Assembly (NCBI GenBank): GCA_947631405.1
Contig: CANRLC010000001.1
Coordinates: 62,001-126,000 of the forward strand
Source of the DNA: an uncultured Clostridia bacterium
Lineage (GTDB): Bacteria; Bacillota; Clostridia; Christensenellales; Aristaeellaceae
Reading direction: 5' to 3'
DNA: 64,000 nucleotides
Part shown: one piece after another, positions 14,540 through 20,217 of the stretch
How the letters are laid out: the number at the start of each line of letters is the position of its first letter
Position numbering within the stretch: the stretch's first letter is position 1
Made by a program: the position numbers and the translations under genes
The notes under the pieces: model-generated
Seen by the model: only the letters and a program-made list of their open reading frames with translations
Database searches by the model: none
What the model was told of the DNA's origin: nothing

Positions 14540-14626
14540 GCGGGAATGGCGGAATTGGCAGACGCGCTAGATTCAGGTTCTAGTGAAGGTTCCTTCATGC
14601 AGGTTCAAGTCCTGTTTCCCGCACCA
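14540..14626 (+). tRNA. tRNA-Leu (CAG)
   Basis: Acceptor GCGGGAA pairs with TTCCCGC (14616-14622). Anticodon stem CTAGA/TCTAG with loop TTCAGGT gives anticodon CAG. Class II variable arm (TGAAGGTTCCTTCA), T-loop GGTTCAAGTCC, encoded CCA. It lies 4 bp after tRNA-Tyr and in the same transcript. Confidence 0.97.
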
Positions 14627-14630
14627 CGTC

Positions 14631-14970
14631 GTCGCGGACTACGCTCTGTTCGCGACGACCTTTTTGTGCTACGCACAAAAAATGTCGCTCACGCGCTCCG
14701 TCGCCATCCTTTCTCCCTCGAAAAACGCTTCGCGTTTTTCGAGGGAGTTACGGGGGTTACGGTCGCGGACTACGCATCGTTCGCGACGATTTTTTGTGCT
14801 TCGCACAAAAACCGTCTCTCGCTCGCTCCGTCGCTCCTCCTTTTCCCTCGAAAACCGCTTCGCGTTTTTCGAGGGAGTTACGGGGAGACGTGCGCGGACT
14901 ACGCACTGCTTACGACGACCTTTTTGTGCTACGCACAAAAAATGTCGCTCACGCGCTCTGGCATCATCCT
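14631..14970. repeat. Tandem repeat (about 130 bp period, 2.6 copies) of three hairpins
   Basis: Begins 4 bp after tRNA-Leu. Units start at 14631, 14762 and about 14890 (offsets 131 and 129 bp measured on GCGGACT). Each full unit has: hairpin 1 (GTCGCG...CGCGAC); hairpin 2 (TTTTTGTGC-TAC-GCACAAAAA); a GTCGCTCACGCGCTCCGTCGCC-like spacer; and hairpin 3, a perfect 16-bp stem in copy 1 (CTCCCTCGAAAAACGC, 14713-14728, with GCGTTTTTCGAGGGAG, 14732-14747). The third copy stops after hairpin 2. All three frames are partly open but no gene-like start or domain is seen. Hairpins 2 and 3 may end tRNA transcription. Confidence 0.85.
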
Positions 14971-15041
14971 TATTCAAACAGCTTTACGATAAACGAAATA
15001 CATTTTGTTCCAACTTCCATCGAAAAAGGGGAGGAGATCGC

Positions 15042-17398: not shown

Positions 17399-17845
17399 GT
17401 GAAGGAGATCGTCATGTATACCGATGGCGCTTGCTCCGGCAATCCCGGGCCGGGCGGCTGGGGTACGGTGTTGTTGTTCGGCGAGCATGTCAAGGAGATC
17501 TCCGGCTACATGCCGGAGACCACCAATAACCGCATGGAGCTGTTCGCCGCCGTGCAGGGCTTCACGGCGCTCAAGCAACCGTGCAGCGTGACGCTGTATT
17601 CGGACTCGGCGTATCTGGTCAACGCGTTTCATCAGGACTGGATTGGGAACTGGCAGCGCAACGGCTGGAAGAACGCCGCGAAGAAGCCGGTGGAAAATCA
17701 GGATCTGTGGAAGTGGCTGCTGACGGTGATGCAGCCGCACAGCGTCAAGATCGTCAAGGTCAAGGGCCACGCAAACGACCGCTGGAACAACCGCTGCGAC
17801 GAGCTGGCGACCGGACAGATCAAGGCGAACCGCTCGGGCGACTGA
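17399..17845 (+). CDS. rnhA: Ribonuclease HI
   Basis: 148 residues from GTG 17399 (SD GGGGGAAAG). Degrades the RNA strand of RNA-DNA hybrids. The four metal-binding acids are visible: Asp9 (YTDGACSGNPGPGGWG), Glu47 (NNRMEL), Asp69 (YSDSAYL) and Asp134 (NNRCDELA), plus His124 in KGHAND. The basic-protrusion helix (IGNWQRNGWKNAAKKPVEN) is present, as in the E. coli type. The upstream 60 bp are AT-rich; no convincing -35/-10 pair was found. Confidence 0.96.
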   Translation: MKEIVMYTDGACSGNPGPGGWGTVLLFGEHVKEISGYMPETTNNRMELFAAVQGFTALKQPCSVTLYSDSAYLVNAFHQDWIGNWQRNGWKNAAKKPVENQDLWKWLLTVMQPHSVKIVKVKGHANDRWNNRCDELATGQIKANRSGD

Positions 17846-17936: not shown

Positions 17937-17970
17937 TAGACTTCGCAAAACTCAGGTTTTACGAAGTCTA
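17937..17970. other. dif-like palindrome upstream of the recombinase gene
   Basis: The centre has the 11+6+11 layout of a Xer site: left arm ACTTCGCAAAA (17940-17950), 6-bp centre CTCAGG, right arm TTTTACGAAGT (17957-17967). The arms are inverted repeats with one mismatch, and three more bases on each side (TAG/CTA) extend the symmetry. The left arm begins ACTTC like Firmicutes dif sites. It lies 36 bp before the GTG of a XerS-like gene; streptococcal dif also lies next to xerS. Alternatives are a leader hairpin (loop TCAG) or an operator; no T-run follows. Confidence 0.55.
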
Positions 17971-18006
17971 TAGCCCCAAAATGGCGCGAAAGGAGGCGTT
18001 TCTGCC

Positions 18007-19104
18007 GTGCCAAACGACTATCACGACCAAGTGCAGCTTGCGCGCACGCGCAGGCTTCGCGCGCTGCTTCGCGAATTGCCGGACGTCTGTTCGGATTATT
18101 TTCTGTCGATCGAGCAGCTCACAAGCCCATTGACGCGCCTCAGTTACGCCTACGATCTCAAGCTGTTCTTTCAGTATCTCTCAAGCGAGCTTCCGAAGTT
18201 TGAGGGCAAACCCATCGCTTCGTTCACTGCGGACGACCTGCACCGCGTGACGAAAAACGATCTGGAGCGCTACGCCCGCTATCTCTCCCTTTACGTCAAG
18301 CCGGAGGGCGCGGGCGGCGACGACGAGCGCGAGGTCGTCAACCACGAGTACGGCATCAAGCGCAAATACGCCTCGCTGCGGGCGTTTTACAAATATCTGT
18401 TCGCCGAGGGCGTCATCGAGAGCAACATCGCGGCGCTGGTGCCGCTGCCCAAGCTGCACGAGCGCGCGATCATCCGGCTGGACGTGGACGAGGTCGCCCG
18501 CATCCTCGATCTCGCGGAGAGCGGCCAGTCGCTGCCCAAGACCTATCAGAAGTACCACCGCGTCACGCAGAAGCGCGATCTGGCGATGCTCTCGCTGTTT
18601 CTGGGCACGGGCATCCGCATCAGCGAGTGCGTCGGGCTGAACATCGACGACTTCGACTTTGAGCAGAACGCGTTCGTCGTCACGCGCAAAGGTGGCAAGG
18701 AGGTCATCCTGTACCTGTCCGACGAGGTCGCGGACGCGCTCAAGGACTACCTCGCCGAGCGTCGCGAGATCGACGCGCTGCCGGGCCACGAGCAGGCGTT
18801 TTTCCTGTCCATCCAGCGGCGGCGCATCACGCAGCGCGCCGTGGAAAACATGGTCAAAAAATACGCGGCCATTGCCGCGCCGCTCAAAAAAAAGATCAGC
18901 CCGCACAAGCTGCGCAGCACCTTCGGCACCAATCTCTACCGCGAAACCGGGGACATCTATCTGGTCGCGGATGTGCTCGGCCACTCGGACGTCAACACCA
19001 CGCGCAAGCACTACGCCGCCATCGCCGAGGATCACCGGCGCATCGCCGCACAGAAGACCGTGCTGCGCGAGGAGCCTGTACACCTCGAAAATCCGGATAT
19101 ATAA
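18007..19104 (+). CDS. Tyrosine recombinase, XerS-like
   Basis: 365 residues from GTG 18007 behind a strong SD (AAAGGAGG). N-terminal SAM-like core-binding domain (about 30-150, with RKYASLRAFYKYLFAEGVIESN), then the catalytic domain. The tyrosine recombinase residues are complete: Arg in LGTGIRISECVGL, Lys in VTRKGGKEV, HKLR in ISPHKLRSTFGTNLY, His in VLGHSDVNTTRKHY and the nucleophile Tyr in that same motif. The length, the long segment between the two domains (KTYQKYHRVTQKRDLAML) and VENMVKKYA recall XerS, the single recombinase of streptococci, more than XerC/XerD (about 300 residues). Likely role: chromosome dimer resolution. An integrase of a lost element is the alternative, but no mobile genes adjoin. 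Confidence 0.85.
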   Translation: MPNDYHDQVQLARTRRLRALLRELPDVCSDYFLSIEQLTSPLTRLSYAYDLKLFFQYLSSELPKFEGKPIASFTADDLHRVTKNDLERYARYLSLYVKPEGAGGDDEREVVNHEYGIKRKYASLRAFYKYLFAEGVIESNIAALVPLPKLHERAIIRLDVDEVARILDLAESGQSLPKTYQKYHRVTQKRDLAMLSLFLGTGIRISECVGLNIDDFDFEQNAFVVTRKGGKEVILYLSDEVADALKDYLAERREIDALPGHEQAFFLSIQRRRITQRAVENMVKKYAAIAAPLKKKISPHKLRSTFGTNLYRETGDIYLVADVLGHSDVNTTRKHYAAIAEDHRRIAAQKTVLREEPVHLENPDI

Positions 19105-19513: not shown

Positions 19514-19525
19514 GAACATATGTTT
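19514..19525. promoter_or_regulatory. LexA (SOS) box
   Basis: GAACATATGTTT matches the Gram-positive LexA core GAAC-N4-GTTC with one mismatch at the end. It is about 10 bp upstream of the lexA -35 and 15 bp upstream of the divergent gene's -35, so LexA may repress both. Confidence 0.8.
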
Positions 19526-19534
19526 GATTTTCTC

Positions 19535-19596: not shown

Positions 19597-20217
19597 ATGG
19601 CGGGTAAGAAGCCTCGCGGCGCGACGCAGGAGCGCGTGCTGGCCTACATCCAGTCCGAAATACGCGAGCGCGGGTATGCGCCCTCTGTGCGGGAGATCGC
19701 GGACGCGGTCGGCCTGCGCTCCACCTCCACCGTACACGGTCACCTCACGCGGCTGGAAAAGAAGGGCCTCCTCTATCGGGACGCGATGAAGCCGCGCGCC
19801 ATCGGCGTGGTCGGCCCAGCCGCGAGCGAAGACCTCGCCGAGCGCGTGCGCGAGATCCCCGTCGTCGGCCACGTCGCCGCCGGTGCGCCCATCCTCGCCG
19901 AGCAGAATATCGAGGAGATGCTCCCGCTCCCCATCGGCCTCACGGGCGACGGCGAGCACTTCATTCTGCGCGTCAAGGGCGAGAGCATGGTCAACGCGGG
20001 CATCCTCAGCGGGGACTACATCGTCGTCCGCAGCCAGCCGGACGCGCAGAATGGCGAGATCGTCGTCGCGCTCATCGACGACGAGGCGACCGTCAAGCGC
20101 TTCTACAAGGAAAACGGCTACTTCCGCCTGCAACCCGAAAACGATACGATGCTCCCCATCATCTGCTCCGAGGTGCGGGTGCTGGGAAAGGTCGTCAGCG
20201 TCCTGCGCAGGCTGTGA
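19597..20217 (+). CDS. lexA: SOS repressor LexA
   Basis: 206 residues from ATG 19597. The winged-helix N-terminus (EIRERGYAPSVREIADAVGLRSTSTVHGHLTRLEKKGLL) binds the SOS box. Autocleavage is expected at Ala95-Gly96 (VAAGAPI), with catalytic Ser130 (KGESMVNAGI) and Lys167 (ATVKRFYK). All residues needed for RecA-stimulated self-cleavage are present. An SOS box in its own promoter implies autoregulation. Confidence 0.97.
   Translation: MAGKKPRGATQERVLAYIQSEIRERGYAPSVREIADAVGLRSTSTVHGHLTRLEKKGLLYRDAMKPRAIGVVGPAASEDLAERVREIPVVGHVAAGAPILAEQNIEEMLPLPIGLTGDGEHFILRVKGESMVNAGILSGDYIVVRSQPDAQNGEIVVALIDDEATVKRFYKENGYFRLQPENDTMLPIICSEVRVLGKVVSVLRRL

Follow-up and report, generated by a model that had tools for sequence, protein, structure and literature searches.

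A putative single-recombinase dif/Xer module at the replication terminus of gut Clostridia

Single-recombinase Xer systems have been described in streptococci and lactococci, epsilonproteobacteria, Legionellales and archaea, with XerS, XerH, XerL and XerA as the systems listed in reviews and surveys, and most other bacteria are regarded as XerCD users (PMC5357621, PMC2731167, PMC9765430). A XerCD dif site was predicted for 97 of 100 Firmicutes (PMC3025954). Subscription papers aside, we found no title on XerS, Clostridia and dif that describes a clostridial one-recombinase system, and no literature linking XerS with Lachnospiraceae. The locus analyzed here lies in a 64,000-nucleotide stretch of DNA (the window) from an uncultured Clostridia bacterium, whose genome is a draft of approximately 2.28 Mb in 68 contigs, 94% complete. 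We estimate from sequence, with a probability of roughly 90%, that a palindrome in this window is the chromosomal dif site, that the adjacent gene encodes the only Xer recombinase of the bacterium, and that dimers would be resolved by this single enzyme. The best reading of this clostridial module is that it represents a variant that is undescribed in the open papers that we searched.

The locus resembles the XerS/difSL system of streptococci and lactococci in its single tyrosine recombinase of about 360 amino acids, in the position of the gene beside the site, and in its location at the terminus, an arrangement that is looser in Lachnospiraceae. XerS is the best NCBIfam model for the recombinase, but the score of 187.6 bits falls short of the cut-off of 267, and the XerS equivalog model was passed by none of 196 genomes of the class compared to 6 of 300 genomes of the phylum. 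Identity to Streptococcus-type XerS is about 32%, and identities to XerS, XerC and XerD are all similar, at about 30-33%. Maximum-likelihood analysis grouped 37 clostridial proteins in a single clade (99/97) and five XerS proteins in another (100/97), with XerC and XerD apart; because the branches are long, a sister relation between the clostridial and XerS clades is unsure and depends on the root. The sites differ as well, with 28 bp, a 6-bp center and near-identical arms in the clostridial hosts compared to 31 bp and an 11-bp center in difSL (PMC5357621). As a positive control, we found difSL directly before xerS in a genome of the phylum that passes the XerS model (L244). The initial annotation had called the protein a XerS-like single recombinase. 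The likeness to XerS in its way of working is retained as an analogy, but its score, its separate clade and the size of the center led us to reject the identification of the protein as XerS.

Other described systems share different subsets of these features. XerH/difH of Helicobacter and Campylobacter likewise has a single recombinase, of 354-362 amino acids, and a site that is often near the gene (PMC5357621, PMC2731167), but it belongs to a different phylum, and the clostridial recombinase is a better match for XerD than for the sequence of the XerH structure. The XerC/XerD-dif system (CodV/RipX in Bacillus) has the same 28-bp 11+6+11 format, and its site likewise occurs once, where the skew shifts. 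Here, in contrast, there is one enzyme rather than two, the site is beside the gene, the arms are alike, and searches in the order gave no orthologue of XerC or XerD. XerL-dif of Legionellales also combines a single recombinase with a long, nearly perfect palindrome at the terminus, but xerL and the site are more than 400 kb apart in Legionella pneumophila, unlike the clostridial pair (PMC9765430).

The putative dif core occupies positions 17940-17967 of the plus strand, and we base its assignment on its uniqueness, its conservation in the genus and the GC-skew switch. Its sequence is as the initial annotation gave it, with a left arm, ACTTCGCAAAA (17940-17950), a CTCAGG center (17951-17956) and a right arm, TTTTACGAAGT (17957-17967), the arms being complementary at 10 of 11 positions. 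The asymmetric 6-bp center, also assigned to the plus strand, is the predicted strand-exchange region by analogy with known Xer systems. The palindrome can be extended to 14+6+14 (TAGACTTCGCAAAA CTCAGG TTTTACGAAGTCTA; 17937-17970, no strand assigned), with 13 of 14 positions paired, and this 14-bp arm length is common to the window and its host and phage relatives (AACTATTCG...CGAATAGTT). The site lies between rnhA, an RNase HI gene (17399-17845, plus strand; Pfam PF00075) that ends at 17845 and is context only, and the GTG start codon of the recombinase gene at 18007. It is upstream of that gene, as annotated initially, at a measured distance of 39 bp rather than 36 bp. Nothing else in the 2,281,385-base draft genome matches the site, even when three mismatches are allowed, and a reversed control pattern had no match. 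A canonical Firmicutes dif pattern had no match in any of 196 genomes, and this pattern is too strict to be informative, because genomes that carry XerD also gave none.

The recombinase gene (18007-19104, plus strand) has AAAGGAGG upstream of its GTG start and encodes 365 amino acids with a Phage_integrase domain and a SAM-like core-binding domain. The initial annotation credited this protein with all catalytic residues, and this was borne out. The open frame is intact, and across 17 orthologues R204, K228, H300, R303 and Y336 are invariant and H326 is nearly so, giving the intact R, K, H-x-x-R, H and Y of a cognate Xer recombinase conserved alongside its site. Orthologues are 76-87% identical within the genus and 45-59% identical across approximately 25 families of the order. 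Directly downstream of the recombinase gene, and also context only, is a LexA repressor gene (19597-20217, plus strand; PF01726, PF00717). In front of it, a GAACATATGTTTG box at 19514-19526 resembles a LexA site when read by eye. Elsewhere in the window, the open reading frames at 14546-14992 contain recurring phrases (FVLRTKN..., FFEGVTG...) and a MAELADALDSGS start of the kind that results when a tRNA is translated, and this segment is likely a repeat region beside a tRNA.

The palindrome has been kept beside orthologous recombinase genes in the genus, in the order and beyond. Of 29 genomes of the genus, 18 have a single copy, which precedes the recombinase gene, and both site and recombinase are present in all nine good genomes (completeness of 90% or more, contamination of 5% or less). 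In the genus alignment, a 32-bp block, AGACTTCGCAAAACTCAGGTTTTACGAAGTCT, is retained except for single substitutions, while its flanks have diverged; the center is constant apart from CTCCGG and CCCCGG variants, and it differs between genera. Elsewhere in the order the site takes the form TATTCGYWAAA-N6-TTTWRCGAATA, and it was located 45-1243 bp upstream of the gene in 13 of 19 further genomes checked. No recognizable site was found near the gene in two members of the genus (G006, G012) or in a few families (G034, G037), some of these genomes or contigs being incomplete. We also examined 80 named loci from public genomes, including Christensenella sp. UBA7703 and several Lachnospiraceae; judging from these named relatives, the window bacterium probably belongs to a Christensenella-like order of Clostridia. 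Just one site is present in 65 of the 80 loci, always upstream of the gene, compared to none of 400 shuffled loci. The distance to the gene is within 300 bp in 39 of these 65 loci, 0.3-1.5 kb in 18 and 1.5-10 kb in eight; in several Lachnospiraceae it is 0.7-8 kb, so linkage is not always tight. The arms are fixed in the host sites of the named loci, and the three bases beyond each 11-bp arm (AAC...GTT) are also conserved, indicating that the arms are 14 bp long. A few genomes have additional sites. One Lachnospiraceae genome (G549) carries the same 28-bp site twice, on separate contigs (G549:C36:7449 and G549:C91:20679), and the two copies perhaps flank an inserted element or reflect a strain mixture. 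In two complete genomes, a weaker second site with another center lies far from the terminus (G131:C1:1776191 and G207:C1:2031904) and could mark an integrated element.

The change in sign of GC skew that the initial annotation had proposed as a check was found at the site. On the 184-kb contig that contains it, cumulative GC skew, measured per contig here and elsewhere, peaks at 79,996, which is 29 bp from the end of the site at 79,967, and a block bootstrap placed the change point at 76.0-85.3 kb. Gene strand flips at the same place, with genes mostly on the plus strand to the left and nearly all on the minus strand for 30 kb to the right. The locus thus has a single-copy palindromic site of about 28 bp at a GC-skew shift point, as do dif/Xer systems. 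In a further ten contigs, which come from other families and from Lachnospiraceae, site and skew switch are separated by 11 bp to 6.5 kb. The distance from peak to site is 46 bp in G049, 0.75 kb in G036, 3.7 kb in G042 and 0.5 kb in G146, and on complete chromosomes it is 1.3 kb in both G207 and G131 and 2.6 kb in G101. Three contigs have a gap of 3-6 kb between site and gene; there the peak-to-site distance is 0.65 kb in G544, 11 bp in G551 and 6.5 kb in G545, and in each case the gene is farther from the peak than the site is. In G544, a mean-shift change-point analysis picks an earlier step at 205.6 kb that is inside positive skew, and the sign changes at 223.7 kb. Coarse sampling of the whole G207 chromosome gave positive skew before the site, mostly negative skew after it, with one positive 20-kb sample at 1.9 Mb, and positive skew again near 2.6 Mb. 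A search for KOPS/SRS-like motifs returned many polarized words, and the GAAGAAG word of the L. lactis type is polarized in most relatives and not in the window genome, but this analysis is confounded by the overall skew. The 28-base palindrome marks the point where chromosome replication ends across an entire branch of gut Clostridia.

The same site is also found in viruses. An exact scan with the consensus found it in 109 viral contigs (L269-L377), while two scrambled control patterns had no match, and the AAC/GTT flanks, which are outside the search pattern, are conserved at the viral sites as well. The presence of the same arms in viral contigs supports the motif as a recombination site. 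Within the stretches fetched, one of the 109 contigs has the recombinase and 108 are without it, which suggests that the phages may use the enzyme of the host. The viral sites have 58 distinct centers, two of which are common to the 26 host centers. The four phage loci examined have terminase or portal genes close to the site, and a single protein family turns up in its vicinity in 38 loci. Many of the 109 contigs have sample numbers that we infer to be of rumen type. We think it somewhat probable that a distinct single-recombinase Xer lineage with a 14+6+14 dif is present in much of the gut Clostridia, and that many phages with the same arms and other centers rely on the enzyme of the host for genome resolution or integration but for the most part do not recombine with the host dif.

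The initial annotation had itself raised the alternative that the palindrome is an mRNA hairpin or an operator that regulates the recombinase gene, rather than a recombination site. The short distance to the start codon could allow autoregulation, and the predicted RNA folds better than all 200 shuffles (z = -4.07). However, the center, which would form the loop, varies freely between genera, the site has no Rfam match and no terminator call, the Lachnospiraceae sites can be kilobases from the gene, and viral sites exist without this recombinase gene. Because the skew switch tracks the site where the gene is 3-6 kb away, we reject regulation as the main role and consider it very improbable. 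Since the hairpin can form, some autoregulation is possible, yet this would leave the sites that are far from or without the gene unexplained.

A second alternative, to which we give equally little weight, is that XerC and XerD are present in the genome and act at the site but were missed through draft gaps or divergence, and that the adjacent recombinase does something else. The draft state of the assembly favors this, as does the co-occurrence of the recombinase and XerD in some Clostridia (G146, G101, G078, G129, G229 and the f36 genomes), including families outside the order. The window genome encodes seven Phage_integrase proteins, six in addition to the site-adjacent recombinase, which has the best score in the genome to the XerC model (152 bits, followed by 90 bits, against a cut-off of 335). 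However, in the search for xerC and xerD that the initial annotation had proposed, none of 60 relatives has a XerC above the family cut-off, and none of nine sampled members of the order has a XerD-grade match (best E-value 5.7e-51, compared to <1e-70 in clear XerD-bearers), and the complete single-contig genomes G131 and G207 of the order agree with this; XerD is above its cut-off in 55 of 196 genomes of the class. The near-identical arms are also what would be expected for one enzyme. XerC and XerD are therefore likely missing from the window genome, although in a 68-contig, 94%-complete draft this is not proven. The Clostridia with both enzymes are possible intermediates between two- and one-recombinase systems. 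Least probable of all is a mobile-element integrase that has the palindrome as its attachment site: the protein has a tyrosine recombinase fold and attachment sites often adjoin integrases, but orthologues with 45-87% identity are in nearly every good genome across families, the protein has no arm-binding domain, its neighbors are housekeeping genes with no element genes adjacent, and its position at the replication terminus is fixed.

The linked one-recombinase dif system proposed initially is thus favored by the skew switch, the conserved pairing of site and gene, and the lack of a XerC or XerD orthologue among the genomes of the order that were searched. FtsK with a gamma domain, as in dif/Xer systems, is encoded in the window genome (G000:C5:64732-64917), and the domain is present in 15 of 15 good relatives. 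By analogy with known Xer systems, from which binding, cleavage, exchange and FtsK control are all inferred, homologous recombination between sister chromosomes would generate a circular dimer, and its two dif copies would meet at the septum. Four copies of the one recombinase would bind the four inverted arms, and the catalytic tyrosine would cut at the edges of the 6-bp center. Strand exchange in two steps via a Holliday junction would then yield two monomers, with FtsK probably delivering and triggering the reaction.

If this reading is correct, a large set of gut Clostridia, namely the order of the window bacterium and Lachnospiraceae relatives, has a single-recombinase lineage of its own, with a dif that is defined and can be searched for. 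Such a site would locate the terminus exactly in many draft genomes, and its consensus would serve to find phages that use the host enzyme. It would also offer a simple Xer reaction with four identical subunits to study. Genomes with both the enzyme and XerD could reveal how one system replaces the other.
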